A stretch of 64,000 bases of DNA, from contig CABIXY010000004.1 in NCBI GenBank assembly GCA_902362805.1, forward strand, positions 434,001 to 498,000, in the 5' to 3' direction. This document shows, in pieces, positions 42,151 through 60,738 of the stretch (position 1 is the first letter of the stretch; every line of letters begins with the position of its first letter). The DNA comes from Eubacteriaceae bacterium (lineage in GTDB: Bacteria > Bacillota > Clostridia > Peptostreptococcales > Anaerovoracaceae). Under the pieces are notes generated by a model. It was given only the letters and a program-made list of their open reading frames with translations. It was not told the origin of the DNA and did not search any database. The translations under genes were made by a program, and so were the position numbers.

Positions 42151-42159
42151 TCTCCCCAG

Positions 42160-42597: not shown

Positions 42598-43498
42598 TAT
42601 TTAATTCCATTCCTTAGCACCTTCAAATTTCCAATAAATACAGAATGATCAATTGCAAAGTTCCCTGTAACCGACTTGTTTTCTGCAACATCTCGAGTGG
42701 TCACGGAGCCAATGTTCACTCGGGCGTTATCGCCAACATGTATCCCATTAATTAACGTAACTCCTGGGCCAATCCAAACATCGTTACCCATTGTCACCCT
42801 GCCAGCAATACAAGTATGCGCTGCAACAAATACTCTTTCACCCATTTTCATACCATGAGCAATGTGCACAATATTATCTGTTTTGCAATAATTACCTATA
42901 ATTGTATCATCCCAAGGATAAATCGCTTTATCAACCGTATTGTTTTGTTGCAATTCCACTTCGCTACCAATGACAACCCCACCAGCATGCTTTACTGATA
43001 ACACTACACCTTCCGTTCGTTTCTGTTCAAATCCTTCTCCACCAACGATTGTACCGGCACGTATAATGGAACAATCACCAATAACCGTATTTTCTTTTAT
43101 AGACACAAATTCCTCGATTATGACATTCTTTCCAATCTCCACATTGTTTTTTGCAATGCTTGCAAGTGGACTTATCTTTGCTGTGGTGTCAATAATACTT
43201 TTAAAGCTTGGCCTTGCATATTCTTTGGATGCTGCAAGATGGTTATGAACCATAAAAAAGGCTAATCTTGGGTTTTCTACAATGCACAAATTATAATGCT
43301 CTTGTAACTCTCTGCAAGTTTCAGTTACCAATAATAGGCACACACTTTCTGCTATATTTCTTTCATATTTTCTATCAATCAAGAATGAACACAAATTTTT
43401 CCTTCCCGGCTTTCAACTAAGCCCAGCGATTCAAAACTGTCATCCCCAATGATTTCAAAAGGAATTGCCAACGTTTCTGGTATTGATCCTAATTTCAT
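42597..43498 (-). pseudogene. LpxD-like acyltransferase, copy 1, frameshifted near the start
   Basis: From an ATG at 43498 with GAAAGG before it, a frame gives IPETLAIPFEIIGDDSFESLG...REGKI and stops at 43379. The rest continues in another frame from about 43394 as CSFLIDRKYERN and a full beta-helix to 42597. Joined, they match LpxD (the second part alone starts at TTG and lacks the domain start). Adding one A to the A5 run at 43396-43400 restores one frame of about 300 residues. This may be a real mutation, a reversible slip, or an assembly error. Confidence 0.8.
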
Positions 43499-43603
43499 CT
43501 AATTTACCTTTCTGCTGATCCTGTTGTAAAGAACACTTACAACACCATATCAAAATTGCTATTTATACTATTTTAAGCAGTTATATCAGCAAAAAGAGAT
43601 TGT

Positions 43604-44155
43604 TTATATTCCTTTTAGAAAAGGATAATCTCTATCACAATTCTTGCAAGACAGATTTATATCTAAAACTGCACCACATTCACAAACCCAACCAATCTGT
43701 TTTGCCGGTACACCTGCCATCAGTCCATAATCAGGCACATCTGTTACAGCAACTGCTCCTGCAGCGATCATTGCATACTTTCCAACAGTATGTCCACAAA
43801 CTATTGTAGCATTTGCACCTATCGAAGCACCCCTCCCCACTATAGTTTTTTGATACTTCGCGCGGCCTTTTGGATATTTTGCTCTAGGCGTCAAATCATT
43901 GGTAAATACCATTGATGGTCCACAGAATACGTCATTTTCTAACTCTACGCCCTCATATATAGAAACGTTGTTCTGAATCTTGCAGCCATCGCCTATTTTC
44001 ACGTTATTTCCAACATTAACGTTTTGACCCAACGAACAATTTGCGCCGATTTTTGCTCCGCTGAGTATGTGACTGAAATGCCATATTTTTGTTTCTTCTC
44101 CAATTTCAACGTTATCGTCTATGTAACTCGATTCATGTACAAAGTAATCTGTCAT
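43604..44155 (-). CDS. Beta-helix N-acetyltransferase (WbpD/WlbB type)
   Basis: The 183 residues form a left-handed beta-helix from GEETKIWHFSHILSGAKIG on, with the loop ENDVFCGPSMVFTNDLTPRAKYPKG typical of the enzymes that acetylate the 3-amino group of UDP-2-acetamido-3-amino-uronic acid. A C-terminal CxC...CxxC set (CECGAVLDINLSCKNCDRD) could bind zinc; such a tail occurs in part of the family. It shares one base with the Gfo/Idh gene, which would make the previous intermediate. Confidence 0.9.
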   Translation of the reverse strand: MTDYFVHESSYIDDNVEIGEETKIWHFSHILSGAKIGANCSLGQNVNVGNNVKIGDGCKIQNNVSIYEGVELENDVFCGPSMVFTNDLTPRAKYPKGRAKYQKTIVGRGASIGANATIVCGHTVGKYAMIAAGAVAVTDVPDYGLMAGVPAKQIGWVCECGAVLDINLSCKNCDRDYPFLKGI

Positions 44156-45228
44156 TAAAATTCTCCTCGCATATCTATACTTGCAAAATTTTGTAGCGGC
44201 ATTCTCACCGGCATACCGGTTTTCTGGCTCTGATAAATTGCTAATACAATTTCCAGAGCATTTCTGCCCGCGATAGCATCAACGTATGGCTTTCTGTCGT
44301 TTTCAATCGCATCAATCATATCTGCAAATAAACTGGTGTGTCCATTCCCATACACATTGCTAGTTGTTTCTTTCAAGCCCTTTTTGATGTTGTCAGATTC
44401 TGTTTCGTCAGCAAAATTCCAAACATCTATGTTATTCGTGGAAGTTCCGCCAATTTTTACTGTTCCCTTTTCCCCAAAGACGCACAAGGTTTCTTCAAGA
44501 TTCTTTGGATAAACATTGGTCGTGCCTTCAATGGTCGCAATCGCGCCGTTTTTAAACTTTAACACTGCCATGCCGACATCTTCTGCCTCTAAGTAATCAT
44601 GAAATTGCTGCCGCGTTGCACCGTAGACTTCCATCACTTCATCGCCAAGCATCCATCTTAGCAAATCAATGCCGTGAATGCATTGATTCATCAGACAGCC
44701 ACCATCCTGTGTCCATGTTCCGCGCCAAGGAGCCTGGGCGTAATAGTCTTTGTTTCTATTCCACCTGACATGAATAGAACCATGTGAGATTTTGCCAAAA
44801 CGATCTTTCTCAACAGCCCGTCTCAATTCCTGTATTGCAACATTGAAACGGTTTTGGTGACAGGCAGATACTTTGACCCCCTTACGCTTCGATTCTTCAA
44901 TAATGCTCTCTGCATCTGCCATACTCATAGCGATTGGTTTTTCTATAATGACGTTAATGCCGCGGGCTATACAGTAAAGTGCAATCTCTGCATGATTCCC
45001 GCTTTCGGTAGCTATGCTTACGAGCTCCGGTTTTTCTTTCTCTAACATTTTTTTATAATCGATATATTTATGTATGTTCATATCTTCTTGCAAGCTATGC
45101 TTGGTCAAAAGATTTTTCATCGCTTCCGGCAACAGATCGCATACTGCAAGAATGTCCAAACTGTTATTGATTGCCGCTTTTATGTGGTTCGTCGCAATGC
45201 GCCCACAGCCAATTAATGCGTACTTCAT
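44155..45228 (-). CDS. Gfo/Idh/MocA dehydrogenase (WbpB/WlbA type)
   Basis: The true start is the ATG at 45228 (GAAAGGG before it; 357 residues); the longer frame from 45258 has no ribosome site. KYALIGCGRIATNH is the NAD-binding start, EKPIAMSMADAE carries the conserved EKP, and NQCIHGIDLLRW the active-site histidine. It oxidises C3 of UDP-GlcNAcA-like sugar before amination. It begins ten bases after the upstream transferase gene. Confidence 0.9.
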   Translation of the reverse strand: MKYALIGCGRIATNHIKAAINNSLDILAVCDLLPEAMKNLLTKHSLQEDMNIHKYIDYKKMLEKEKPELVSIATESGNHAEIALYCIARGINVIIEKPIAMSMADAESIIEESKRKGVKVSACHQNRFNVAIQELRRAVEKDRFGKISHGSIHVRWNRNKDYYAQAPWRGTWTQDGGCLMNQCIHGIDLLRWMLGDEVMEVYGATRQQFHDYLEAEDVGMAVLKFKNGAIATIEGTTNVYPKNLEETLCVFGEKGTVKIGGTSTNNIDVWNFADETESDNIKKGLKETTSNVYGNGHTSLFADMIDAIENDRKPYVDAIAGRNALEIVLAIYQSQKTGMPVRMPLQNFASIDMRGEF

Positions 45229-45238
45229 ATTTTCCCTT

Positions 45239-46522
45239 TCAATTCGCAGTATTTTCAATTATTTCCTTTAGAACCTCTGTTAAATATTTGAAATCAAATT
45301 GCTCTGCAACGTGCAACGAATTACTGCAATATCTTTCATATGCATCTTCTCTTAATGTTTCAAAATACGAAATACCTTCGCAGATTCCCTGCGTACTATA
45401 ATCTATAATAGTTCGTCCGGCTTCGTTAGCTCTTATTAAGTCATATTTTTGCGAAACTCTGATATCTGAAAGCACCGGTTTACCCGCAGCAAAATATTTA
45501 AATAATTTATTTGGACTCAGACCATATTTTGTAACTTTCTCCGTTTGATGGCTCCCATGTAAAATAACGATTGAAGATTTTGATAATATCGCAGGGATAT
45601 ATTTTTCTTCCAGATGCCCTTTGAATACTATATTAGTTAATCCCTTTTTTTTGCAACATTCTTCTATTTCCGTTTTTTGGTTACCGTCACCAAATATCAA
45701 AATTCTGATATCACGGCTTCCAAGTTCCATCAATTTCTCAGCTACGCTGACCAATGGGTTTAAATTATTCACTCTCCGTATCGATCCAGTATAGACAACT
45801 TTAAATAAGGATGTGTTATCCAAATCTGGATCTGGATAGTCGTACTGTTGAAGGTTGTGATAGTAAGATTCCAAATCTACTCCGTTATTAATATAGTGCA
45901 CTTTATTTAAATCAATTTTTCCACCAGAAACCTGATCCCAACCTTGTTCAATAATATAGTCTTTCCCACCTTCCATAGTAAAAATCAAAGCATCCGCACG
46001 CTCATATATCCACCTCTCGCCCCTATACAGGAACTTAACAAACAAGTTTTTTTTACTTAATTTTTCGCTATATGCAACGATACTTTCCGGCCATAAATCT
46101 CTCACTTCACAAATACATGGAATCTTATATTTTTTTCCAAACCTTATTCCGGCAATTAAAGTAAGCGGGTGTACACTGGAAGCTAAAATGACATCTGGCA
46201 CTCCATCTCGTTGTGCTATTTTTTTGGCAGCTTTTTGCACATTATGATAAAATGACATCATGTTTAATATGCGGCTGATTCCATTCCCTTTGTATGCTCT
46301 CACTTTTACAAAAACATAATCAATATCTTCGGAAATATCTTCTTTATAAAGTGCACCCTCCAGTTGGATGTCATCGTCTCTGCCGTGCTGCGTAGACGCA
46401 CAGAATATTTTCACCTTATAGTCCATACGTTTTAAATATTTTGCGAACCAATGATGACGCCCGCCTTGTTGAAAGAACATTTCTGTTGCATAATGATTCC
46501 AGAACCAAATGGTTTTCGACAT
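45239..46522 (-). CDS. GT4-type glycosyltransferase
   Basis: The 427-residue protein starts KTIWFWNHYATEMFFQQGGRHH and has a GT-B fold with DVILASSVHPLTLI and IPCICEVRDLWPESIVAY in the N-terminal half, FKVVYTGSIRRVNN at the border and GLSPNKLFKYFAAGKPVLSD in the donor half. It resembles the WlbH/WbuB group. By position after PglC/PglD-type genes it may add the second sugar. AT-rich to intermediate composition. Confidence 0.88.
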   Translation of the reverse strand: MSKTIWFWNHYATEMFFQQGGRHHWFAKYLKRMDYKVKIFCASTQHGRDDDIQLEGALYKEDISEDIDYVFVKVRAYKGNGISRILNMMSFYHNVQKAAKKIAQRDGVPDVILASSVHPLTLIAGIRFGKKYKIPCICEVRDLWPESIVAYSEKLSKKNLFVKFLYRGERWIYERADALIFTMEGGKDYIIEQGWDQVSGGKIDLNKVHYINNGVDLESYYHNLQQYDYPDPDLDNTSLFKVVYTGSIRRVNNLNPLVSVAEKLMELGSRDIRILIFGDGNQKTEIEECCKKKGLTNIVFKGHLEEKYIPAILSKSSIVILHGSHQTEKVTKYGLSPNKLFKYFAAGKPVLSDIRVSQKYDLIRANEAGRTIIDYSTQGICEGISYFETLREDAYERYCSNSLHVAEQFDFKYLTEVLKEIIENTAN

Positions 46523-46535
46523 ATCAACTCCTATA

Positions 46536-47183
46536 TCATTTATTTTTTCTGATTACTTTTGCAGGGTTTCCATATGCAATGACATCTTTAGGAATATCAT
46601 GGGTCACCACCGCACCCGCGCCAACAATTGAATTTGATCCGATACATTTTCCAAGACTTACGATGACACCATCATCAAGAAGTGTATTTTCTTCTATTCT
46701 CACATTACCTGATAATACAACTCCAGACGCAATATATACATGGTCTTCTATAACATTATCATGATTTACTTGCGACCCAGTGTTTATTACAACATTATTT
46801 CCAATGATGGGATTTGGCGTGATCAAACATCCGCATTCAACCAAGACTCCATTTCCCAATCTTGCCTTTGGTGATATGACGGCTTGCGGATGAATGATAT
46901 TTACCGCCTCCCAACCTTGGGAAATGAACTTGTCATATACCTCTCTTCGGTATTTCATATTACCAAAAGCCACAAAAAACTTGTTTGTATTGTATCTTCG
47001 TCTATACTGTTCCAATTCTTCATAAGTTCCTACAACTTCAATATCATTAACTTTTTCGCCAATTTTACGTGAATCGGAATCTAACATGCAGACAACATCA
47101 TACCTATTTTGTTCTTTAATGTTATACATCACGACTCTTGCATGTTGTCCACTGCCAATTAAAATTAACTTTTCCTTGTTCAT
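46536..47183 (-). CDS. PglD/NeuD-type sugar N-acetyltransferase
   Basis: The 215-residue enzyme has the PglD plan: a Rossmann-like N-terminal domain (LILIGSGQHARVV, 1-80) and a beta-helix with GSQVNHDNVIED (catalytic His near 136) and a C-terminal ITHDIPKDVIAYGNPAKVI. It acetylates the 4-amino group of a UDP-amino-dideoxy sugar, giving UDP-di-N-acetylbacillosamine in PglD. It shares one base with the PglC-type gene. Confidence 0.88.
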   Translation of the reverse strand: MNKEKLILIGSGQHARVVMYNIKEQNRYDVVCMLDSDSRKIGEKVNDIEVVGTYEELEQYRRRYNTNKFFVAFGNMKYRREVYDKFISQGWEAVNIIHPQAVISPKARLGNGVLVECGCLITPNPIIGNNVVINTGSQVNHDNVIEDHVYIASGVVLSGNVRIEENTLLDDGVIVSLGKCIGSNSIVGAGAVVTHDIPKDVIAYGNPAKVIRKNK

Positions 47184-47812
47184 TATGTCCCTGTTCCTTT
47201 GAAATTTTCCATTGTTGCGTTAGTCCGCGAATTAATATCTTCATGTCGTAAAACGGTGAATATTGTTTTAAATACGATCGTTGTATCACATAGTAAAGAC
47301 ATTTTTCTAATATAATTTACATCATAAAGAAAGCGTTCTTCCCAGGTAAGCAAATTTCTCCCCTTTACCTGCGCACTGCCACTAAGGCCTGGTTTTACTG
47401 AATGTCTTCTCCTCTGAAAATCACTGTACAAAGGCAGATACTCCACGAGCAGCGGCCTTGGTCCTACGACGCTCATATCGCCTTTCAGGATATTCCATAG
47501 TTCCGGCAGTTCATCCAAACTCGTAGATCTGAGTATCCTGCCAAACTTCGTCAATCGAACGTCATCAGACAAGAGATTCCCTTCTGCGTCTTTTTCATCT
47601 GTCATGCTGCGAAACTTATACAGAGTAAAAATTTTCTCGTTCTTTCCCGGTCTTTGCTGTTTGAAGATAACCGGACTGCCCAGCTTGATTCTCACAAGCA
47701 GTGCAACGATTAGCAGCACCGGGCTTAGAGCGATCAGCGCACACAATGATAGTAGAATATCAAGCAAACGCTTTATGTATTTAGCATAGAAACTATCTTT
47801 TCCTTTTTTCAA
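47183..47812 (-). CDS. PglC-type initiating phosphoglycosyl transferase
   Basis: A 209-residue monotopic enzyme with one N-terminal re-entrant hydrophobic helix (about 12-38), the KFRSM motif (about 68), and LDELPELWNILKGDMSVVGPRPLL (about 98-121). Its short form, without extra membrane domains, matches PglC rather than WcaJ. It links the first sugar phosphate to undecaprenyl phosphate. Found with PglD-, PglE- and PglF-type genes, the sugar is probably di-N-acetylbacillosamine. Confidence 0.92.
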   Translation of the reverse strand: MKKGKDSFYAKYIKRLLDILLSLCALIALSPVLLIVALLVRIKLGSPVIFKQQRPGKNEKIFTLYKFRSMTDEKDAEGNLLSDDVRLTKFGRILRSTSLDELPELWNILKGDMSVVGPRPLLVEYLPLYSDFQRRRHSVKPGLSGSAQVKGRNLLTWEERFLYDVNYIRKMSLLCDTTIVFKTIFTVLRHEDINSRTNATMENFKGTGT

Positions 47813-47814
47813 TT

Positions 47815-48945
47815 TCAGAACATTCCTCTCACAATTTCAATCACTTCTATCTGCTGTTCTCTGCTCATCTTCGTATCCGACGGCAGGCAGACCCCTCTGT
47901 TAAACAAATCCTCAGCAATGCCGCAGTTATCTATATAGTCATAATCCGCAAAGAAAGGTTGCAGATGCATCGGCTTCCAAACCAGTCTGGATTCGATATT
48001 TTCTTGCTCAAGCGCTAACATAATATCTAATGGCTTCACTATGGATTCAGGTTTCAGCGTCATGACTGAAAGCCAGCAGTTGCATCTCTGTCCCCCGAAA
48101 TCTACGGGCATCATCTCAATATCATCAATTTCTGAAAATGCATCCCTGTAAAACTCGAAAATCTGCCGTTTCTGGTTCACACGTTTTTCCAGAACTCGCA
48201 GCTGACCTCTTCCAATCCCGGCGCAGATGTTGCTCATTCTATAGTTATAGCCCAGTTCTTTATGTTCGTAATGGCGTACTGGCTCTCTTGACTGAGTTGA
48301 CCAAAACCTGGCTTTCTGTATTCTCTCCTCAGCGTCCGCTTTGTTCCCCGCGAGGATCCCTCCGCCGGAAGTCGTGATGATCTTATTGCCGTTAAAACTG
48401 AAAACACCGTAATCGCCAAAGGTTCCTGTATATTTGTTCCCATACAAAGTTCCCAGACTTTCCGCAGCATCCTCTATCAATACTGCATCATGCGCTTTGC
48501 AAATTCGCTGTATCTCTGTCATATTTGCTGCAATGCCATACAGATGTACTGGCACTACAATCCTGCAGTCCGGATATTTCTGAAAGGCCCTTTCCAAGGC
48601 GGCAGGCGACATGTTCCATGTTTCGTAATCGCTGTCGATAAACACCGGTTCTGCTCCAGTATACAGGATGGCATTTGCCGTTGCCGAAAAAGTAAGAGAC
48701 TGACAAAACACCTTCTCCTCTGGCTTTGCTCCGGCCAGCTTCAAGGCTAAGTGTAAAGCCGCCGTTCCAGAAGACAGTGCCGTAGCCGCCCGATTTCCAC
48801 TGAGCTGACAAAATTCCTTTTCAAGTCCATCCACGTTGGCTCCAAGAGGCGCAATCCAATTGGTGTCAAACGCTTCTTTTATATATGATTTTTCATATCC
48901 TTCTTCACTCATATGGGGAGAAGCTAAAAAAATTCTATCTTTCAC
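47815..48945 (-). CDS. PglE-type sugar aminotransferase (DegT/DnrJ family)
   Basis: The 376-residue PLP enzyme starts RIFLASPHMSEEGYE, with ALSSGTAALHLALKLAG (about 57), EDAAESLGTLY (about 160) and FSFNGNKIITTSGGG bearing the PLP lysine (about 187). The N-residue before K instead of T/H is usual in the PglE group. It aminates C4 of the 4-keto-6-deoxy sugar made by the CapD/PglF-type dehydratase. It follows the nucleotide-sugar dehydrogenase by 16 bases. Confidence 0.92.
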   Translation of the reverse strand: MKDRIFLASPHMSEEGYEKSYIKEAFDTNWIAPLGANVDGLEKEFCQLSGNRAATALSSGTAALHLALKLAGAKPEEKVFCQSLTFSATANAILYTGAEPVFIDSDYETWNMSPAALERAFQKYPDCRIVVPVHLYGIAANMTEIQRICKAHDAVLIEDAAESLGTLYGNKYTGTFGDYGVFSFNGNKIITTSGGGILAGNKADAEERIQKARFWSTQSREPVRHYEHKELGYNYRMSNICAGIGRGQLRVLEKRVNQKRQIFEFYRDAFSEIDDIEMMPVDFGGQRCNCWLSVMTLKPESIVKPLDIMLALEQENIESRLVWKPMHLQPFFADYDYIDNCGIAEDLFNRGVCLPSDTKMSREQQIEVIEIVRGMF

Positions 48946-48961
48946 GATTCATAAATCCTCA

Positions 48962-50278
48962 TTACAGCACTTCTATATTATCTCTGTGCTTTACATCCTT
49001 CATCACATTCTTGGTATCAAAGATGGCCTTAGCACTTTGCTGGACCATCTCATAATCCACATTGGTATGGGCTGTCGTCACCATCACCAGGTCATAGCGG
49101 GAAACGATTTCCTTACTAATTTTCTCAAGGCCCCGCTTCGCTTTATCTTTATAATGATATACCGAGATAAATGGATCAAAATAGTCAACCTTGGCACCTG
49201 ATCGTCCCAAAACTTCGATCACGCGGATTGCCGGACTCTCTCTGTAGTCGTCAATATCCTGCTTATAGGCAACCCCCAGGATCAAAACCTTTGAACCGTT
49301 TAAAGATTTGCCATAGTGGTTCAAAATTCTCGATGCCCTGTCCACACAATACTCCGGCATCTTGTCATTGACCATCATGGAGCTTTCAATCATCGAAGTA
49401 TGAAAACCATACTCCCTGGCCTTCCATGACAGGTAATAAGGATCCAGTGGGATGCAATGGCCGCCTAAGCCCGGTCCCGGATAAAATGGCTGAAAACCAT
49501 AAGGTTTTGACTTTGCGGCTTCCACCACTTCCCAATAGTTGATGCCCATCCTGTCGCAGAGGATTGCCATTTCGTTGGCAAGTCCGATATTGATGTTTCT
49601 ATAGGTATTCTCCAGTATCTTTTCCATCTCTGCAATAGCCGGGCTGGACACTTCGTAAACCTCGCCTTCCAATACGGATCTGTACATGGCAGCAATGACT
49701 TCTCTGGCATCATCACCGATAGCTCCAACCACCTTCGGTGTATTTTTTGTTTTGAACTCCCTATTGCCAGGGTCAACTCGCTCCGGTGAAAATCCCAGAT
49801 AAAAGTCGTCCCCGCATTTGAAACCAGAGCCCTCTTCCAAAATCGGTTTAAGGAGTTCTTCTGTCGTCCCTGGATAGGTCGTTGATTCAAGGACAATCAT
49901 CATTCCCTTTTTCATATATTTTGCGATTTTTTCGGCTGAGTCCCTGACACAACTGATATCCGGCTGCTGATGTATGTCGAGAGGCGTAGGTACACAGATT
50001 GCCACAAAATCGGTTTCGGCAATTCTGCTAAAATCATCTGTAGCACAGAGTCTTCCAGTCTCAACTAATTGATTCAATTCTATGTCAACAATATCACCGA
50101 TATAGTTTTGACCGCTATTCACCATTTCGACCTTTTTTTGTCTGATGTCAAAACCCATTGTCCTATAGCCGGCCTTTGCCTTTTCTACTGCAAGAGGAAG
50201 CCCTACATAGCCTAGTCCGACCACGCCGACTACAATTTCTTTATTACGAATCTTTCTTAGTAACGTTTCTTTCAACAC
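48962..50278 (-). CDS. UDP-sugar 6-dehydrogenase (WbpA/UDP-GlcNAc type)
   Basis: The 438-residue enzyme oxidises C6 of a UDP-sugar to the uronic acid in two NAD-dependent steps. The NAD loop is GVVGLGYVGLPLA (about 17-29), ESTTYPGTTEE lies at about 130, and the catalytic cysteine is in GPGLGGHCIPLDPYYL (about 270). The C-terminal third is the UDP-binding domain. It is the first step (WbpA role) for the diamino uronic acid made by the WbpB/E/D/I-type genes. Confidence 0.92.
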   Translation of the reverse strand: MLKETLLRKIRNKEIVVGVVGLGYVGLPLAVEKAKAGYRTMGFDIRQKKVEMVNSGQNYIGDIVDIELNQLVETGRLCATDDFSRIAETDFVAICVPTPLDIHQQPDISCVRDSAEKIAKYMKKGMMIVLESTTYPGTTEELLKPILEEGSGFKCGDDFYLGFSPERVDPGNREFKTKNTPKVVGAIGDDAREVIAAMYRSVLEGEVYEVSSPAIAEMEKILENTYRNINIGLANEMAILCDRMGINYWEVVEAAKSKPYGFQPFYPGPGLGGHCIPLDPYYLSWKAREYGFHTSMIESSMMVNDKMPEYCVDRASRILNHYGKSLNGSKVLILGVAYKQDIDDYRESPAIRVIEVLGRSGAKVDYFDPFISVYHYKDKAKRGLEKISKEIVSRYDLVMVTTAHTNVDYEMVQQSAKAIFDTKNVMKDVKHRDNIEVL

Positions 50279-50285
50279 ATTCTCC

Positions 50286-52274
50286 TTACGCGATTCCTAC
50301 TGCTTTCTCCCCTTTGCCCAAGAATTCTCCAGTTGCTAAAGGCGCTTCTTCCTCCAAGATTTCGACACTGTTCAAGTCACCACTTACTACTAGTCCTCTA
50401 TCTTCAACAAAATCTAGGTTTTCGTTCTCAGCCAGGCTCTTCTCATTATTCTCTGTAATCACATATCCAGGACACATCTGTGCCACCCTTTCCTTGATCT
50501 GGGAATCGTTTTGGAAGGCAGCTTCAATCAGAGCGTCCAAGTCTATCCTGAACCTGCCAGCATCCATCGGAATCGGTCTGCCGATATGAATCAGCTCATT
50601 TTCCGTGCGGTGAAGGCCTTCCTCATCCATGAGGATTTCCTCGTGGAGCTTTTCACCGGGACGGAGGCCTACGATTTTAATTTCGATGTCTCTGTCAGGC
50701 GTATAACCCTGCATGCGGATCAGACTCTCTGCCAGATCGTAGATCCGAACCGGCTTTCCCATATCCAAAACGAAGATCTCGCCGCCGCAAGCATAGAGGC
50801 TGGCCTGGAGCACCAGGGACACGGCCTCGGGGATGGTCATGAAAAATCGAGTGATGTCGCGGTGGGTGACGGTCACAGGCCCTCCCTCCTCAATCTGTTT
50901 CAGAAACAAAGGTACCACGGAGCCGCTGCTCCCCAGCACGTTTCCGAACCTGACCGCGGCAAAGTGAGTCACCGACTTTCTCGCGTAGCACTGAACGATC
51001 ATCTCGCAGATGCGTTTTGTTGCCCCCATGACGTTAGTCGGTCTGACCGCCTTGTCCGTGGAGATTAGGACAAAATCCTTCGCCTTGTACTCATCCGCCA
51101 GTCTGGCTGCATTGAGGGTTCCCAGACAGTTGTTCTTCACCGCCTCACAGGGCGAATCCTCCATCAGCGGTACGTGTTTATGCGCCGCCGCATGGTAAAC
51201 GATGGCAGGCCGATATTCTTCAAAAACGGCTTTCAGCTTATCGTAATCACGTACGGAACCGATCAGCACACGCAGCCTGTCCGTGCCGTATTTTCGTCCC
51301 AACTCCTGCTGCAGGTCATAAGCATTGTTTTCGTAAATATCAAAAACAACCAGCTGTTTTGGCCCCTGTGCCATGACCTGCCTGCAAAGCTCTGACCCGA
51401 TAGAGCCTCCTCCTCCAGTAACTAGCACCACTTCGCCTGCAATGAAGGATTGGATGCCTTCCTCATTGACCTTGACCGATTCTCTTCCGATCAGATCCTG
51501 CAGATTGACTTCTCGCAGGTTCTGGCTCATCATACCCGTCAGAGTAGAGGAAATTTCCGGCAGAATCCGCACACGGCAACGGGTGCCGCTGCAAAGCCCG
51601 ATGATTTCGCTCTTGTCCTGTGGCTTTGCCGATGGGATGGCGATGATGATTTCCTCGATTTCATATTCCTTGATGGCTTCTTTGATCATCCACCTGTCAC
51701 CGATGATTTTGATGCCGCCTATGTACTTATTCTTTTTGTCCACATTGTCGTCAATGACACAGACCACTTTGTTATCGCAGTGCTTGTTGCGATACAACTC
51801 ATGAATCAAAATATTTCCCGCAGAGCCGGCACCGATGATCATAGTTCGTCTTTGATCCTTTGGGCAAAGAAAACGGCTCCGATAATAGTTAAACACCCTC
51901 AGAGACATCCTGGAGCCGACTGCCAGCACAAACAAGAAAAGCATGTTGAGCAAGTAATAGCTTCTTGGCATGTTAACCTGCAGCATCAGCTTATAGAAAG
52001 TCTCAACTAAATTGACCACCACCACGGCTTCCATGGCTCTGACTACATCAGATATGGATACAAACGTCCATACGCCGTGATATAGGTGAAAGAGTCTGAA
52101 GATACACACGGTAAGCAGCATGTCCAGCGGCATAAAGCGCAGCATAGTATCCAGGTAGCCCATCGGTATCTGGGTGATATCAAAACGCATAGCCAGTGCA
52201 CAAAGCCCGCTGATAAGGACGATCATCATATCGATTGTAATCAAAATACAGCGTTTCATTCTCTGTCTGGTCAC
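50286..52274 (-). CDS. CapD/PglF-type membrane nucleotide-sugar 4,6-dehydratase
   Basis: Four to five N-terminal membrane segments (about 5-125) are followed by a Rossmann-like domain and a dehydratase domain with VTGGGGSIGSELCRQV and KDFVLISTDKAVRPTNVMGATKR. It makes UDP-4-keto-6-deoxy-GlcNAc from UDP-GlcNAc. The long frame from 52445 overlaps the kinase gene; the GTG at 52274, nine bases after GGAG, is the likely start (662 residues). The C-terminal tail (last 45 residues) is acidic and variable. Confidence 0.88.
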   Translation of the reverse strand: MTRQRMKRCILITIDMMIVLISGLCALAMRFDITQIPMGYLDTMLRFMPLDMLLTVCIFRLFHLYHGVWTFVSISDVVRAMEAVVVVNLVETFYKLMLQVNMPRSYYLLNMLFLFVLAVGSRMSLRVFNYYRSRFLCPKDQRRTMIIGAGSAGNILIHELYRNKHCDNKVVCVIDDNVDKKNKYIGGIKIIGDRWMIKEAIKEYEIEEIIIAIPSAKPQDKSEIIGLCSGTRCRVRILPEISSTLTGMMSQNLREVNLQDLIGRESVKVNEEGIQSFIAGEVVLVTGGGGSIGSELCRQVMAQGPKQLVVFDIYENNAYDLQQELGRKYGTDRLRVLIGSVRDYDKLKAVFEEYRPAIVYHAAAHKHVPLMEDSPCEAVKNNCLGTLNAARLADEYKAKDFVLISTDKAVRPTNVMGATKRICEMIVQCYARKSVTHFAAVRFGNVLGSSGSVVPLFLKQIEEGGPVTVTHRDITRFFMTIPEAVSLVLQASLYACGGEIFVLDMGKPVRIYDLAESLIRMQGYTPDRDIEIKIVGLRPGEKLHEEILMDEEGLHRTENELIHIGRPIPMDAGRFRIDLDALIEAAFQNDSQIKERVAQMCPGYVITENNEKSLAENENLDFVEDRGLVVSGDLNSVEILEEEAPLATGEFLGKGEKAVGIA

Positions 52275-52308
52275 AAGCACACACTCCTTCCACACACGTC
52301 GCAGAGTA

Positions 52309-53010
52309 TTATTTATACGCTCCGTACTTACCTTTTTTGTAATACCCTTTATAGTATTTGCCGCCGCCCAAATCCACCTTGTTGAGCACCGTGCCCAAAA
52401 TGCGGCAATCCGCAAACTCCAGCTGCTTCTTGACTTCCAAGGCATATCGGTAACTGATCATATCGCTTTCAATGACGATGATTGCCCCGTCACAGCAGTG
52501 TGCCATGACCACTGTATCGATGACCATGCCTAGAGGCGGTGAGTCGATGAGCACTATGTCATAGGTTTCCCTAGCCTTCCGGATAAGATTTTCAAAGCGT
52601 TCACCGCCTAGAAGTTCCGTCGGATTTGGCGCTGTGGGACCTGCCACCACCAGATCCAGACCCTTGACATCAGTCTGATAGATGACATCCTCCATCATGC
52701 ATTGACCGGAAAGATAGTGGGATAAGCCCATGATCTGTCCATCTGCACGGAGTTTGTTAGCGCCGATAAATACCGACTTTCGCAGGTCAGCGTCAATGAG
52801 CAAAACCTTCTTTCCGTCCTCGGTAAAAGAAAATGACAAATTCAGAGCAGTCGTACTCTTGCCTTCGTTTTCAGTACAACTGGTCAGAGCCACAACCCTG
52901 ATGTCGTCACCGCAGAACTTCAGATTGGTTCTGAGGGAATTAAATGCCTCCTTTGTGGCATAGTCCGTCTCCTGAGGCTTACCGAATTTCGCCGTCTTCT
53001 TCAAACTCAT
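52309..53010 (-). CDS. CpsD-type tyrosine autokinase
   Basis: BY-kinase of 233 residues that controls capsule chain length by autophosphorylation. Walker A is SCTENEGKSTTALN (about 45), Walker A' LLIDADLRKS (about 75), Walker B VLIDSPPLG, and the C-terminus carries a tyrosine cluster, YYKGYYKKGKYGAYK. It overlaps the CpsC-type gene by four bases, as usual for this pair of kinase and membrane activator. Confidence 0.93.
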   Translation of the reverse strand: MSLKKTAKFGKPQETDYATKEAFNSLRTNLKFCGDDIRVVALTSCTENEGKSTTALNLSFSFTEDGKKVLLIDADLRKSVFIGANKLRADGQIMGLSHYLSGQCMMEDVIYQTDVKGLDLVVAGPTAPNPTELLGGERFENLIRKARETYDIVLIDSPPLGMVIDTVVMAHCCDGAIIVIESDMISYRYALEVKKQLEFADCRILGTVLNKVDLGGGKYYKGYYKKGKYGAYK

Positions 53011-53765
53011 GCCTTTCCTCCCCTTCGTTTTACGTTTTTATTCTGTTTCCTGTGTCTAGCTCTTTTCTGTTTCTCCTCACCAGCTTTCATCGGAATCACA
53101 GCCAGGGTGTTGAGTTTCAGATACTTCTCCACATCATCCTGTGTCTTGATGGTATCGTCCATCAGGTGCAGTACGATGATTACCAACATGGACAGGAATG
53201 CCCCCAAGAGGAACCCGATCAAAATGTTCATCTTCTTGTTGGGGCTGACCGGTTGGTCTGCCAGATGGGCTTTTTCCACGATGCTCGGCTCTTCTGTCTT
53301 CATAATCTCCGAAATCTGCTTGCGAGATACGGAAGCAAACTCGTCTGCGATGACCATGGCCATTCTCGGATCGTGATCCTTGACGATAATCTTTAGAATA
53401 CGCGTATCTGTGGGCGTTTCCACCGTCAATTCACCAAGGAGTTCCTCATAATTCATGTCCAGATCCAGGTTCTTGATGACTTTTTCCACCACTGGCCTGC
53501 TCTTGATCAGTTCCATATAATCCGACGTTAGCGAGGAACCCAGCTGTATATCCGCCAAAGACGTAATAGAAGTCGACTGGGTCAAAATATAGACCTTGGA
53601 TGTAGACGAGTACATCGGTTCTACGATGAAAAAGCTGAAAATCCCAGCGGCAATAGCGCCAATCAGCGCTGTAACAATGATCACGACGATCTTTGCTCTG
53701 AGTACCAGGAATATTTCCTTTAAATCAATCTCCAACTCGTCAGAATAGTGCTGCTCTTCTTGCAT
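53007..53765 (-). CDS. CpsC-type chain-length regulator (Wzz family)
   Basis: A 252-residue membrane protein with two segments (about 24-45 and 178-200) enclosing an extracellular Wzz domain. The proline-rich PxxP-like stretch before the second segment (DQPVSPNKKMNILIGFLLG) is typical. It activates the CpsD kinase through its cytoplasmic tail, here basic (RARHRKQNKNVKRR). Confidence 0.92.
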   Translation of the reverse strand: MQEEQHYSDELEIDLKEIFLVLRAKIVVIIVTALIGAIAAGIFSFFIVEPMYSSTSKVYILTQSTSITSLADIQLGSSLTSDYMELIKSRPVVEKVIKNLDLDMNYEELLGELTVETPTDTRILKIIVKDHDPRMAMVIADEFASVSRKQISEIMKTEEPSIVEKAHLADQPVSPNKKMNILIGFLLGAFLSMLVIIVLHLMDDTIKTQDDVEKYLKLNTLAVIPMKAGEEKQKRARHRKQNKNVKRRGGKA

Positions 53766-53782
53766 CGAATTTCTCCTTTAAA

Positions 53783-54514
53783 TTAAATATATTTATCTTC
53801 CAAAAGCCTCTGGGGGTTAAAATACAAGATTCGCGCTGCGTCATCATCACCAATTTTCTGCACCAGCTTTTGTACAGCCGCTTCCATCATTGGGCCGCGC
53901 TCATCCATATTGTGGCTGTCATCAGCGATAAAGTGGACGCAGCGATTTTGTAAAAGCCGGTTGGCCCAGGAGGTGGCTCGATTCATCCGGCTTCCCAAGA
54001 TGCTTCGGCAATTAACCTGTATGTAAGCTCCTAGATAAATCAAGTCTTCGATTCGATCTATTTTCTTGTACAACGCGTCATAACGTTCCACATGGGCGAT
54101 GATCGGCGAATAACCTGCCTCAACCAAATTCTTCAAGCCTTCGTAAATCGAGCTATAGTCCTCTGCTGTGCGGAATTCTACCAAAACATACCGGCTGTTT
54201 CCTAGAGTCAGTGCCTCGCCTTTTTCAAGTGCCTCCAGTATACTAGGGGTGTACAAAATCTCGTTGCCCAGATACAAAGTCATATCATCGTAGAATTCCC
54301 CGCATCTCCTCTGCAATTGTCCAAAATGCACCTGCATTGTCTTCAAGTCGTAATCATTTCCCCCATAGCTATAATGGGGCGTAAGATAGATGGTGCGGAT
54401 ACCCTCGTCTCTTGCCGCTGCAATCATGGCTTCGCTTTCCTCAAGGGTCTGTGCGCCATCGTCAACACCAAACAGAATGTGACAGTGTATATCTGTATAA
54501 AATTTCCCTTCCAT
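53783..54514 (-). CDS. CpsB-type PHP phosphotyrosine phosphatase
   Basis: The PHP domain starts YTDIHCHILFGVDDGAQT, with the metal-binding HxH near residue 9, and later STIYLTPHYS-like and IIAHVERYD motifs. The 243 residues are a normal size. It dephosphorylates the CpsD tyrosine tail with manganese or similar metals. It lies 17 bases before cpsC and eight bases after the unknown membrane protein, joining the sortase module and the glycan locus in one direction. Confidence 0.92.
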   Translation of the reverse strand: MEGKFYTDIHCHILFGVDDGAQTLEESEAMIAAARDEGIRTIYLTPHYSYGGNDYDLKTMQVHFGQLQRRCGEFYDDMTLYLGNEILYTPSILEALEKGEALTLGNSRYVLVEFRTAEDYSSIYEGLKNLVEAGYSPIIAHVERYDALYKKIDRIEDLIYLGAYIQVNCRSILGSRMNRATSWANRLLQNRCVHFIADDSHNMDERGPMMEAAVQKLVQKIGDDDAARILYFNPQRLLEDKYI

Positions 54515-54519
54515 ACTTC

Positions 54520-55371
54520 TCAGCTCACTTTCCCGGCAAACTTATGCCTGTTTGCAAATAAAGCAGTAATGAGGAACAGGACAATTCCTACTGTCGTGAT
54601 GACAGCAGCTGCGTACATTCCGCTCCTCAGATAGTCATTGCTGAATTCCAAGTAATAGGCGGTTTCGACGCCTTTATTGACTCTGTCAAAGAAGAAAAGC
54701 TTTACCCATATGACCAGATTAGCCAATATTGCTGAGAAAAGGCCATAGGATAGATACCGAAATCCCCTGTGCCTGAACTTTTGAATTTTGATCAAAACCA
54801 AGGATGTCAATCCTGTCAAAACAGCCAGCAGCGGAATTGCAATAGGTGATACCCTGTCCAAATTTTTGTGCAGGGGATAGAAGAATTCTCCAAAGCGAAA
54901 CTGGACACAGCTTTTGTAATAGCCGGACACAGTTTGTACAATTTCTTCCCGTGCAATTATGATGTCGTCATCTTTGATGATGCCATGTTCATTAAAATAC
55001 TGATTGATATTTCGCCGCAAAGACTTCTCCAAGTCTGTTGTATCCACCTGGCAGGACTGGCCGCCAAGAGCCGCTTTGATAGATTTGCTGCTATCTACAT
55101 AGAATCTCTCCTTCGTGACTGCTTTGGTCACGATTTTCGCAGGCATACTTCTTTCTTTGATATAGGCCTTGGACTTAGCCAGCACTTCTCTGTAAGCCTC
55201 CTGGGTGTAGTCGCTATTGTTTATGCTGTTCTTCAGATTTTGACTGCTTCCCAGTCCCAGATTCAACTGAATGAGAAAAAGCAGCGACAATACGAGTACT
55301 GCTAAAAAAAATGTCAAAATAAAGCTAATTCCACGAGCATAAGCGCTCTTTTTATTTTTTCTTTCTGTCAT
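54520..55371 (-). CDS. Unknown four-segment membrane protein of the sortase module
   Basis: I recognise no family. The 283 residues have a membrane segment near the start (about 15-37), an extracytoplasmic part (about 38-175) and three segments at the end (about 178-198, 207-230, 245-268), with a short basic tail. The overlap of four bases with the sortase gene and its position before cpsB suggest a role in envelope assembly, perhaps helping the sortase or linking it to the glycan. Confidence 0.75.
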   Translation of the reverse strand: MTERKNKKSAYARGISFILTFFLAVLVLSLLFLIQLNLGLGSSQNLKNSINNSDYTQEAYREVLAKSKAYIKERSMPAKIVTKAVTKERFYVDSSKSIKAALGGQSCQVDTTDLEKSLRRNINQYFNEHGIIKDDDIIIAREEIVQTVSGYYKSCVQFRFGEFFYPLHKNLDRVSPIAIPLLAVLTGLTSLVLIKIQKFRHRGFRYLSYGLFSAILANLVIWVKLFFFDRVNKGVETAYYLEFSNDYLRSGMYAAAVITTVGIVLFLITALFANRHKFAGKVS

Positions 55372-55967
55372 AGAGCCTCCTGCACCTCACGGCCTGAAAT
55401 TTTGTCGCAGTAAACTACGAATCTCCGGCTTCTGTCCCCAAGGATTAATCCAAACGGATAACAGGTATACAGAATCAAAGACTCTTTTTCTTCCTGTTGG
55501 TACAGGTCAGGGTCGGCAGCCTTTAACACTTTGATATCTTTTACTTTATATTTGTACAGACCATAGGTTGTCTCAATCTCTATAACCTGATTTTTTTTGA
55601 TTTTCTCTAATGGTTTGAAAAAGGTCATATCGTGGGCTCCGATTAAAATGGACCGTCCTTCTCCCGGCATACCGCTGAGGCTGTACTGTCCGGCACCTTT
55701 TTCTAGTATTTCTTCACTGTCCCCATAATATAATGGGACTTCTAACTCAATCTCTTTGCAGCGTATACTTCCGTATCGGCTGCCGACTGCCGGTCTTGTG
55801 AACTGCTGATAATCCATCGTTACTGCATACTGGAAATTTGGGGACCCCATCGTGAACGCAGAAGTCAGCTGCGCTGAAAGTAAATGCTCTGCCGGCATTG
55901 CACCTGCTATGATGAGGACAGACACAATGGCTGTAAAAATCATAGCCGTGTATTTTTTATTCTTCAT
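55368..55967 (-). CDS. Class D-like sortase
   Basis: The 199-residue transpeptidase has an N-terminal membrane anchor (about 8-28), the histidine motif SILIGAHDM, the catalytic cysteine in LILYTCYPF and the arginine in DRSRRFVVYC. Sortases cut a C-terminal sorting signal of a surface protein and link it to the peptidoglycan. The size and motif spacing fit class D. It overlaps the upstream small protein gene by 11 bases and the downstream membrane protein gene by four, an operon arrangement. Confidence 0.9.
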   Translation of the reverse strand: MKNKKYTAMIFTAIVSVLIIAGAMPAEHLLSAQLTSAFTMGSPNFQYAVTMDYQQFTRPAVGSRYGSIRCKEIELEVPLYYGDSEEILEKGAGQYSLSGMPGEGRSILIGAHDMTFFKPLEKIKKNQVIEIETTYGLYKYKVKDIKVLKAADPDLYQQEEKESLILYTCYPFGLILGDRSRRFVVYCDKISGREVQEAL

Positions 55968-56508
55968 GTTTTAATAGTTTTAATTTGTATATACCTATCA
56001 GACTGGCTGCCGCTCCTGCTGCCGCCGCTATGCATATCATCAATGTAAAGTTTAACGAAAATCCGGTGTTTTTTACCGGCATAGAAGCGCTGAAGATGAT
56101 TTTTCCATCCTTCTCTACTTCTATTGTTCCTTTTGTCAGGTTCGTTTTGCCGGATAGCTGCTCTCCTCCATCCGTTTTTTCTTTGGATGTGGTCGTATCT
56201 CCGCTGCCGTTTACTGGCACGATGTATCCTTCTTCCACGCCTGCCTGAACATTGTTCAGCATAGTGGAAATTGCTTCATCCGCTTGTTCGGCGGTAAGAT
56301 TGATGTCGTCTCTTGACAGATACGCCTGCAATGAGCCCAGCGATTCCTGTGAAGAAACGTAACTTTTCCCCTCGTATGTAAAGGTTCCCGAAGCCGCGCT
56401 GAAGACTCTCGCCTCGTTACCGTTGATACTTCCGGCAAAGACCACGACACACTGACAAAAAAGAAACAGAAATGCCAATCCAATGATACAAACTATTTTT
56501 CTTGACAT
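55957..56508 (-). CDS. Secreted protein, probable sortase substrate
   Basis: No known family. A signal peptide (about 1-27, ending VVFAG) is followed by an exported domain of about 115 residues, rich in Thr/Ser/Gly. The C-terminus is PVKNTGF (about 144-150), a hydrophobic segment (about 152-173) and KLKLLKHEE, the plan of a cell-wall sorting signal with an irregular motif (NTG in place of LPxTG). The overlap with the sortase gene supports this. The segment may also be a simple membrane anchor. Confidence 0.7.
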   Translation of the reverse strand: MSRKIVCIIGLAFLFLFCQCVVVFAGSINGNEARVFSAASGTFTYEGKSYVSSQESLGSLQAYLSRDDINLTAEQADEAISTMLNNVQAGVEEGYIVPVNGSGDTTTSKEKTDGGEQLSGKTNLTKGTIEVEKDGKIIFSASMPVKNTGFSLNFTLMICIAAAAGAAASLIGIYKLKLLKHEE

Positions 56509-56551
56509 CCCTGCCCCTCCTGCATTACTTTATAACTGTTCTTGACCTGCC

Positions 56552-58264
56552 TTATTTTGCAGTTCTGATTGCTTTGCTTGACCACTTAGTGAAGACTTTT
56601 GCTCCATCAACCACTCTGACACCTCTTACCTTGTAGTAATATCTGGTACCTTTCTTCACCTGCTTCGTATTCTTGTACGACATCTGCTTTCCACTCTTGG
56701 TCGTGTAGAATGCTTTTGTTCCATATCCACTGTTCTTCTTCGTGGATCTAAATACTTGATAATAATCTACTTTGAAGCCTGCAGATTTCTTCCACTTGAT
56801 CGTGATGGAACCCTTCTTCGCTGTTGAAGATGCTTTGATCGTCGTAGCTTTCACGCCAGCCTTGATCCTTGCCGCCTTTGACTTTTCGGTAGCAGCTACA
56901 GCAGCGTCTACCGTTGCCTTGTCTGCCAGGGCATAGTAAGAGAAATGCCCTGTTGTGAACTGGTAGCACTTCTTGCCGTTCACGGTCACTACCTGTCCCT
57001 GCACCTCTTCGGCTTCACCTTTGTCATTGATGAACATCACTTTGGCATCATCGCCTAAGCCTGCTGGAAGCTCCACGCTGATGGTTGCACTGCCGCCGTT
57101 AAAATTGCTGACTTTGCCCGCTGCTGTCTCCAGTGTCAGGTCCAGTACCAACGTCTTGTCATCCACTTTGTCCTTGATGGCTTCCGGAAGGGCATCCTGT
57201 GCTACTTTTTCTACGGTCAGTTTGACCGTGCCGTCTGCCGCCTGGCCCGCTACGGCTGCCAGTGCCTTGTTGTCAAGGGTGACCTCGCCTGCCGGCGTGG
57301 TGACCTTCAAATCTGCCGAGGTCTCGGTTGCGATTTTCTTCACAGCGTCAGCCGGAAGGGTCGTCTCCACCTTGGTTGCTGTAGCTGGTGCTGAGGATTC
57401 GATGGATACTGTGGTGTTCACATCCTTTGCTCCTGCCGCCGTGGCTGCCTTCTCCGCTGCCTTGGCCTGCTCTACCAGCTTGTCCGCCGCTGCCTTTGGA
57501 ACTTCTGCAGTTGCAGTACTTCCAGTGGTGGTCACTTTTGCAGACGCAGATACCTCTGCCTCTGCAGTAATCTGTCCATCCTTGTCCTTCGTAACTTCCG
57601 TTACAGTTTCAACGCCAGTAGCCTTGTCCGTCGTCGTTGTCGTTGTTACAGTGCTGCCATCCGGCTTCGTGACAGTGTCAGTTTTGCTGTCATCTGTAGT
57701 TGGCGGAGTGACTGTGCCGCCGCCGCTGCTAACTGGGGTGAAAACTACCTCGATAGTACCGCTGCTCATAGGCATTTTGTTAATTCCCTTTGCTAAATAC
57801 TGCACAAACTCAGTATTACCTATAGTCTTGGTTGGAATATTATATGAACCTGTATCCAAGTTGATTGTAACCGTCGCATTATGCGTCAACGTATACTGTG
57901 TCCCTCCAATGACGTAAGATGATCCCGCAGGGATATATGCAGTAAGCACTTTGCCAGCTGCTTTAACTGTAGCTCCGCTTGCAAGCGCTTGGATTGATCC
58001 TGCAGCTTTGGTCGTATATCCAGTAGCAATTGCAGCCCAAGTTTCCGCTGCACCGCTTTCTGCTGTAAGTCCATCTGTTGTTGTAGTATAGGCAGCAGTT
58101 TTTCCTGCAGCATTGACCGTAATTGTCTTTCCGGCAGTAACGCCAGTTGCGGTCACATTATAACTCTCGTCGATGCTAAATGTCTCTCCTGCCGCAAACG
58201 CCATCGTCGGCATGAAGCAGAGAATCATGGCAACGATCAGAAATGTGCTCAATAATTTCTTCAT
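56552..58264 (-). CDS. Secreted Thr/Ala-rich surface protein with C-terminal FN3-like domain
   Basis: The ATG at 58264 with AAGGAGG (58282 has no such site) gives 570 residues. A signal peptide (1-26, ending MAFA) is followed by a region rich in T, A and G (about 27-190), a linker TVTPPTTDD, a T/E/K-rich part, a beta-rich part ending HFSYYALAD, and a C-terminal FN3-like module (about 470-570, [10 protein letters not shown]...[10 protein letters not shown]). There is no sorting signal. It is probably non-covalently bound or released. Promoter and leader show unusual features, listed separately. It heads the sortase module. Confidence 0.85.
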
Positions 58265-58283
58265 TATCTTCCTCCTTAACATT

Positions 58284-58401
58284 AAGACATACTAAAAATA
58301 TGTCTTTCCTTAGGAAAACACCCCTGTGAGGTTCGGGCAGCTATCCATCACCACACAAGAGATGTTTTCGAGGGGATTGTGTTTATTTGTATATCCTGCC
58401 C
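58284..58401 (-). promoter_or_regulatory. Structured leader with pseudoknot potential
   Basis: Read on minus: GGGCAG (58401-58396) pairs with CTGCCC (58340-58335); inside it ACACAA (58382-58377) pairs with TTGTGT (58358-58353, written in order of the RNA). The loop CCCCT (58375-58371) can pair with AGGGG (58325-58321), outside the first stem, giving a pseudoknot. The AGGGG can instead form ACCTC-ACA-GGGGT. Near the ribosome site AAGACATA/TATGTCTT is another stem. I could not match it to a riboswitch class I know. Confidence 0.55.
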
Positions 58402-58434
58402 TTCGACAAGTTTATACCTACTTTTTTCTCTTAT

Positions 58435-58465
58435 AGTATAACCCCCCCCCCATGCAGTTTTTCAA
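58435..58465 (-). promoter_or_regulatory. Promoter with a G10 run in its spacer
   Basis: On minus TTGAAA (58460-58465) and TATACT (58435-58440) are separated by 19 bases, of which ten are an unbroken G run (58442-58451). Transcription would start near 58428, giving a leader of about 165 bases that contains the pseudoknot-like structure. Change of the run length by slippage would change spacer length and so promoter strength, as known for Neisseria porA. Confidence 0.7.
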
Positions 58466-58703
58466 GTACTTTTTTACAAAAATACATTACTTTCATAATT
58501 ATCTCAATCTGTGTTCAGGGACTGGGGGTGGGGGTTATTTCCTTAATCTTTAGAAAATTCCACGCTCTGCGATAGCACCTGCACGGAATCAAATCCTTCC
58601 AGCGACTTGCTTTGACTTGACTTCCAAACGGAAATGTATAAAGCACTCTTTACTCAGAAGTTGAAGTTCAGCCCTTTAGCGCCTAACATATGGTTTACTC
58701 ATA
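58466..58703. other. Spacer between nucleotidase terminator and surface-protein promoter
   Basis: No gene is seen. It holds a G-rich stretch on plus (two G5 runs, 58524-58534 region) and AT-rich parts. The C10/G10 run and promoter lie at its left border. Confidence 0.5.
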
Positions 58704-58731
58704 CAAAAAGAGCGCCCAACAGGGGCGCTCC
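58704..58731 (-). terminator. Terminator after the 5'-nucleotidase gene
   Basis: On minus a perfect 8-bp GC-rich stem (GAGCGCCC/GGGCGCTC with a 5-base loop) is followed by TTTTT. It is 36 bases after the stop. Confidence 0.9.
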
Positions 58732-58766
58732 ATCAATATGCGATATGCGCAATATATGTTTTTTTC

Positions 58767-60698: not shown

Positions 60699-60738
60699 CT
60701 TCTCATCCTCACTTCTATTCCTCATTTCTTAAATTTTA

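Follow-up and report, generated by a model that had tools for sequence, protein, structure and literature searches.

Does a run of ten G between the -35 and -10 boxes of a clostridial promoter act as a switch for the surface genes behind it? The promoter lies on the minus strand of the window (the whole 64-kb stretch of DNA analysed here), and we consider it likely that slippage in the G run changes the spacer length and so produces porA-like phase variation of a surface-protein, sortase and capsule operon. More specifically, a sigma-A-type promoter would carry a hypermutable G run in its spacer, slipped-strand copying would gain or lose single Gs, and the -35/-10 distance would shift over about 17 to 20 nt, raising or lowering transcription. 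In the 19-nt form that was sequenced, the promoter would be of weak or intermediate strength; losing one or two Gs would shorten the spacer to 18 or 17 nt, which we infer to be the lengths of the on state. In general, sigma-70 promoters are expected to be stronger with a spacer of 17-18 nt than with one of 19 nt (see also PMC7864442). The promoter would drive a secreted surface protein and probably, judging by the operon structure, the downstream sortase and capsule genes, and individual cells would come to differ in surface make-up. It would also be one of a family-wide set in the Anaerovoracaceae.

A G tract in the spacer of a surface-protein promoter

The initial annotation placed TTGAAA and TATACT 19 bases apart on the minus strand with ten of the spacer bases forming one G run, and this reading is exact. 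The -35 box TTGAAA lies at 58460..58465, the -10 box TATACT at 58435..58440 and the intergenic G10 tract, the proposed slippage site, at 58442..58451, inside the 19-nt spacer 58441-58459. Read on the minus strand, the order is CTTGAAA AACTGCAT GGGGGGGGGG T TATACT, and transcription would be expected to start about 7 nt past TATACT, near 58428. The promoter is missing from simple promoter scans because its spacer is 19 nt and the scans take spacers of 16-18 nt only. Such a scan gives a weaker minus-strand candidate just upstream (58507-58479, TTGAGA-17-TATTTT, 9/12), and promoter-like matches in 56-60 kb show no excess (5 versus 4.8 in shuffles).

By itself the G run is only moderately unusual. 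Among the G or C runs of the window, none has a length of 7, 8 or 9, and length 10 is found just once; a G10 or C10 arose by chance in 52/1000 simulated windows (first-order Markov), and the 3 overlapping G8 matches of the window were equalled or exceeded in 14/100 shuffles. The full pattern TTGA-N8..16-G7-N0..5-TATANT appeared in 0/1000 windows simulated in the same way. Runs of ten G had been called rare in non-coding DNA of genomes of this kind. Rarity holds for Emergencia timonensis, whose 4.7 Mb contain six tracts of G9 or longer, two of which belong to poly-G promoters, but not of the family at large, where 106/197 genomes contain at least one G9 and some contain many. Two family genomes (G028 and G104) carry 302 and 180 overlapping G9 matches, yet no place that matches the promoter pattern.

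The porA promoter of Neisseria meningitidis, reportedly described by van der Ende in 1995, resembles that of the window in having poly-G in the spacer and, presumably, in its surface product, and differs in its Gram-negative host. We know of no sortase or capsule operon, riboswitch or inverted upstream tract at porA. In porA the G run lies between the -35 and -10 boxes and, through its length, determines a spacer of around 17 nt (PMC7864442); porA and opc promoters are also treated in PMC5084427. The window promoter has its homopolymer in the porA position, between -35 and -10. The earlier likening of the locus to the Neisseria porA/opc switches thus stands for porA and is loose for opc, where a poly-C tract includes the -35 region and does not lie in the spacer (PMC7864442). 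In the window, TTGAAA and the G run are 8 nt apart and an opc-type overlap with the -35 box is absent; the likeness to opc would be the control of a surface-protein promoter by homopolymer length.

Similar layouts have been described in other bacteria. In Treponema pallidum tp0126, a poly-G tract lies between -35 and -10 and expression is best at 17 nt (PMC7864442); the poly-G spacer is as in the window, whereas the host is a spirochaete and the product an outer-membrane protein. Within isolates, the tract of T. pallidum tprL showed lengths of 7 to 11 G (PMC7864442), so tracts of such length slip in at least one bacterium. Closer in cell type is PPA1880 of Cutibacterium (Propionibacterium) acnes, a secreted putative adhesin with a G run in its putative promoter spacer: three strains carry 11, 13 and 15 G, with spacers given as 18, 20 and 23 nt, and its authors also consider a tract within the coding part (PMC3224659). 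As described there, this case shares with the window a Gram-positive host, a G run in the spacer and a secreted product, and differs in being a single gene of an actinobacterium.

Within the clostridia, stochastic surface switching has a precedent of another kind. To our knowledge, clostridial phase variation is mainly known through DNA inversion, as in C. difficile. There, stochastic switching of surface and motility functions is tied to c-di-GMP (PMC9286219, PMC6837544); C. difficile is like the source of the window in being a clostridium and in the stochastic surface switching proposed here, and unlike it in using DNA inversion instead of a homopolymer. Among the matches listed in our literature search, with subscription journals mostly outside its scope, no poly-G spacer promoter was reported for Clostridia or Anaerovoracaceae, and no paper named both Anaerovoracaceae and phase variation. 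The mechanism is known in Neisseria and Treponema and has been proposed in an actinobacterium; for Clostridia no report was found among the matches listed.

Recurrence of poly-G promoters across the Anaerovoracaceae

Comparisons were centred on E. timonensis (Clostridia, Peptostreptococcales, Anaerovoracaceae), the nearest named relative; the product of the gene upstream of the window promoter is 86% identical to an E. timonensis protein, in agreement with the clostridial origin proposed from the sequence. A poly-G promoter pattern requiring at least 7 G was found at 51 places in 28/349 family genomes. As a control, the same pattern read backwards gave 2 places in these 349 genomes, and the pattern with C for G gave 7 places in 7/349. 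In the genus set, 6 of 13 genomes had at least one place, 10 places in all. The phylum sample (398 genomes) contained 17 places in 15 genomes, E. timonensis being one of these, versus 13 reversed, and the order sample had a match in 14/277 genomes. When the 185 order-sample genomes outside the family set of 349 were counted separately, 3 had a match versus 4 with a reversed match. Since counts outside the Anaerovoracaceae are near background, the excess of poly-G promoters is a property of this family. E. timonensis has a second poly-G promoter, with TTGCAA as its -35 box, that is not counted in the 51.

The 51 places represent 44 distinct sequences, in which the spacers cluster at 18-19 nt (33/44) though the pattern permitted 13-26 nt: 15 nt (2 sites), 16 (3), 17 (2), 18 (14), 19 (19), 20 (3) and 24 (1). 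The -35 box is TTGACA at 23 sites, TTGAAA at 12 and another sequence at 9; the -10 box is TATAAT at 32 and TATACT at 12. The longest G run is G7 at 11 sites, G8 at 9, G9 at 12, G10 at 11 and G11 at 1. With its G10, 19-nt spacer, TTGAAA and TATACT, the window promoter fits this set. Stricter TTGACA-Gn-TATAAT patterns also occur in three viral contigs (L192-L194), with spacers of 14, 21 and 15 nt.

Family promoters of this kind tend to precede genes for secreted products. A signal-peptide-like protein lies downstream of 27/39 poly-G promoters versus 8/38 other canonical promoters (Fisher p = 3e-5), in a comparison that takes only promoters with a callable ORF, draws its controls mostly from neighbours of poly-G loci and uses a crude signal-peptide rule that some membrane proteins and transporters also pass. 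With repeated ORF starts removed, the counts are 26/38 versus 8/38 (p = 7e-5). Transporter-like genes follow the poly-G promoters of two genomes, G056 and G128.

Tract length varies between homologous promoters. Among 41 sites compared, 27 pairs had at least 62% of 70 flanking bases matching, and tract length was unequal in 8 of these pairs and equal in 19; the pairs are not independent, most coming from one gene array, and they compare species or paralogs, not members of one clone. In the cleanest pair, G056 versus G128, a G8 faces a G7 within flanks that are 69/70 identical. One genome (G168) carries five tandem paralogous surface genes, each with its own poly-G promoter (G9/G9/G8/G9/G9), and two more are present in G195.

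The porA-like phase-variation reading put forward in the initial annotation is thus supported by the excess over the reversed pattern, the clustering at 18-19 nt, the signal-peptide bias and the tract differences between near-identical promoters, as well as by the aptamer positions described below. The recurrence of the layout across the Anaerovoracaceae suggests that copying errors in G runs randomly switch surface genes up or down.

At the G168 and G195 arrays (L130, G168:C46 30275-41345; L132, G195:C34), the genes encode signal-peptide paralogs of 528 to 649 aa as read. With near-identical G8/G9 promoters in tandem, they are a candidate antigen-switching array. In another genome (G070; C62 21040-22164, C41 and C76; L179-L181), short ORFs of 83-97 aa starting with MRKVE stand behind G8 promoters; on C62 three poly-G promoters are in tandem, with ORFs listed for two. 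These ORFs possibly encode phase-variable small peptides.

Several poly-G promoters of relatives are coupled to c-di-GMP-I riboswitches. Rfam scans covered 35 loci (L130 and smaller loci were left out), and c-di-GMP-I aptamers were searched for in seven genomes selected for their poly-G promoters, with up to 150 candidates scored in each, yielding at least 30 aptamers. An aptamer (RF01051) lies downstream of six poly-G promoters: one behind each of the E. timonensis promoters G001:C8:743062 and G001:C8:1570729, and others at G006:C29, G006:C74, G007:C28 and G349:C61. Both G006 promoters (L177, L183) and the G007 promoter (L137) are followed by tandem double aptamers. At five promoters in 4 relatives the aptamer starts 7-10 nt past the -10 box and is therefore an independent element placed where the transcript should begin; at the sixth (G001:C8:1570729) it starts 127 nt past the tract. 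Ahead of the aptamers at G006:C60, G006:C18 and G001:C8:1123279, an interrupted G tract occupies the same spacer position, and these promoter-like sites look like locked versions of poly-G promoters. Apart from the second aptamer of G007:C28, the remaining aptamers have no G run of at least 7 within 170 nt upstream. No aptamer follows immediately after the poly-G promoters of G002, G004 and G013, and the Rfam search found no RF01051 aptamer downstream of the G10 promoter in the window. A further locus (L182, G004:C10) was dropped as a promoter-riboswitch pair, its aptamer lying about 1.2 kb upstream of the promoter.

An inverted upstream tract and competing explanations

Simple slippage leaves one feature of the locus unaccounted for. 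Upstream of the promoter, GGGGTGGGGGTTAT (58525..58538, plus strand) forms an imperfect inverted repeat with 58438-58451; the arms are 14 nt long, 93% complementary and 73 nt apart, and the upstream one mirrors the G tract plus the beginning of the -10 box. Relative to the G run, the C tract starts at -83 in the window and at -81 and -78 at the E. timonensis promoters, and the arm junction co-varies with the promoter (ATAAC/GTTAT in the window, ATAC/GTAT at both E. timonensis promoters). In the 300 nt upstream, 4/52 poly-G sites had a C-rich stretch (C at 9 of 10 positions), namely the window, both E. timonensis promoters and one site where it lies at -242; across the 52 sites there was no G-rich stretch upstream and no C- or G-rich stretch downstream. 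In 12/13 genus genomes, a C-tract/50-80 nt/G-tract pattern occurred at two places, exactly the two E. timonensis promoters, and 0 times reversed. In the sample examined, only the window and E. timonensis carry the upstream inverted tract. It might provide recombination arms, form a looped regulator site or act as a template from which the tract is repaired.

Taken as recombination arms, the C tract and the G run with the first -10 bases would make the promoter invertible, a recombinase flipping the -35-bearing segment to face the operon in one orientation and away from it in the other. We regard this as improbable. The 93% complementary arms of the window, the same layout with a co-varying junction at both E. 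timonensis promoters, the restriction of the paired-tract pattern to these promoters within the genus genomes and the invertible sequences upstream of genes in C. difficile (PMC9286219, PMC7446863) all speak for it, but the arms match imperfectly, with G10 facing G5TG5, and are of low complexity, the segment is short, and all three loci are in the same orientation, with no flipped copy among them. Moreover, the C-rich stretch is absent at 48/52 sites and placed elsewhere at one more, which means that inversion cannot account for the set as a whole across the family. A single factor could also bind the paired tracts, which lie about 80 nt from each other in the window and E. timonensis; this would agree with the G run being a fixed structural or regulator-binding element that does not switch in length (for instance a pair of G5NG5 sites joined by a dimeric regulator). 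That tracts keep to G7-G11, under a pattern that needed at least 7 G, and that spacers stay near 18-19 nt would fit such an element, which is nevertheless unlikely given that tract length differs where flanks barely do (the G8/G7 pair) and that the tprL tract varies within isolates of T. pallidum (PMC7864442).

Slippage must also be set against chance: the G run could have arisen at random beside promoter-like hexamers, or it could be an artefact of assembly. Such an origin would be credible for the tract alone, as a G10 or C10 recurs among simulated windows and the G8 matches lie within the range of shuffles; for the whole arrangement it is very improbable, with the full pattern absent from 1000 simulations, 51 family places against 2 reversed, clustered spacers and a signal-peptide bias at the family sites. 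Slippage-driven change of spacer length in the G10 promoter, affecting its transcription, remains the explanation that we prefer.

A wider reading is possible, and we put it forward tentatively, at somewhat less than even confidence. Throughout the Anaerovoracaceae, poly-G slippage promoters may form a shared set acting on surface proteins, capsules and small peptides, joined in several lineages by one or two c-di-GMP riboswitches in series, such that a random switch would gate a sensed one; in Emergencia the poly-G tract, as a repeat arm, may provide a second mode of switching by inversion or templated repair. If true, the surface and capsule diversity of these clostridia could be predicted from sequence and measured through G counts in metagenome reads that already exist, and a slippage promoter in series with a c-di-GMP riboswitch would be a natural test of random and sensed control combined.

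The leader and gene run downstream of the promoter

The gene upstream of the promoter (58767-60725) is 5'-nucleotidase-like. On its 3' side, a terminator-like hairpin of 9 pairs (7 of them G-C) with a T tail lies at 58709..58731 on the minus strand and would insulate the G10 promoter from this gene. Past the promoter, fold calculation gives a structured 5' leader (58283..58428, minus strand); the fold over 58260-58435 reaches -49 kcal/mol (z = -3.9), with 0/200 shuffles as good. In Rfam, no family reached gathering score for the window leader, and a search over 52-64 kb returned no match for it at E up to 1. A known riboswitch was rejected as an identity for the leader: searched alone, it gave a best E of 3.1, to unrelated families and below gathering score. 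A ribosome-binding site, AAGGAGG (58271..58277, minus strand), stands 6 nt ahead of the likely start ATG at 58264; the mechanically listed ORF begins at 58282.

The first gene (56552..58264, minus strand) encodes the secreted surface protein, which has a signal peptide, a variable N-terminal part and a conserved C-terminal part and is presumably located at the cell surface. It has no Pfam match at E 0.001, and the closest proteins (P0003-P0005) are 69-82% identical. Fold comparison returned local matches of fibronectin and cytokine-receptor type (TM 0.12-0.18 over the query in the rows shown), which were set aside, and a phage-cargo origin of the gene was rejected, as protein alignment gave no relative in viral contigs.

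The genes that follow, all on the minus strand, combine a sortase with capsule functions. A 183-aa protein (55957..56508) with a signal peptide and a C-terminal PVKNTG-hydrophobic-KLLKHEE (basic) tail has no match in Pfam or NCBIfam; adjoining the sortase, it is possibly a sortase substrate with an unusual sorting motif. The sortase (55368..55967) scores above cut-off for Pfam Sortase and TIGR01076, and class D models are its top-scoring ones, yet under their own cut-offs. Behind it are a 283-aa membrane protein (54520..55371) with no family match in Pfam or NCBIfam, a CpsB/CapC-type capsule protein (53783..54514; Pfam above cut-off), a Wzz/CpsC chain-length protein (53007..53765; Pfam above cut-off, NCBIfam below) and a CpsD-type tyrosine autokinase (52309..53010; TIGR01007 above cut-off). 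Eight more genes of the run (43604..52445), annotated from Pfam, NCBIfam and the ORF list, include a polysaccharide dehydratase, a nucleotide-sugar dehydrogenase, a LegC-like aminotransferase, a PglD-like hexapeptide protein, a glycosyltransferase, a GFO/IDH/MocA oxidoreductase, a hexapeptide transferase and a gene at 47183-47812 taken from the ORF list.

From 58282 to 43604, the ORF list thus gives 15 genes on one strand, no gap between them exceeding 43 bp, and no strong terminator is listed inside this run. Over 42000-58900, terminator-like matches are not above shuffles (10 versus 13.5), whereas promoter-like matches on both strands are (49 versus 33.3). With terminators at shuffle level and promoter-like matches in excess, one transcript is plausible and internal promoters are possible. 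The suggestion that the promoter drives the whole sortase and cps module therefore agrees with the close-packed run and is qualified by the internal promoter-like matches. Control of the sortase and cps genes by the G10 promoter, through read-through of the operon, is plausible from this gene arrangement.

In E. timonensis, the same nucleotidase gene is followed by one other gene and then by genes matching 23.6-27.5 kb of the window, with synteny judged by gene order and lengths only. Given this match in order and lengths, the sortase/cps stretch constitutes an insertion-like difference: comparison of about 28000-58500 of the window with the E. timonensis locus (L026) finds the stretch absent at the equivalent place. 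This absence and a drop in GC to 32-39% at 32-48 kb of the window suggest that the sortase/cps stretch is an acquired capsule island.
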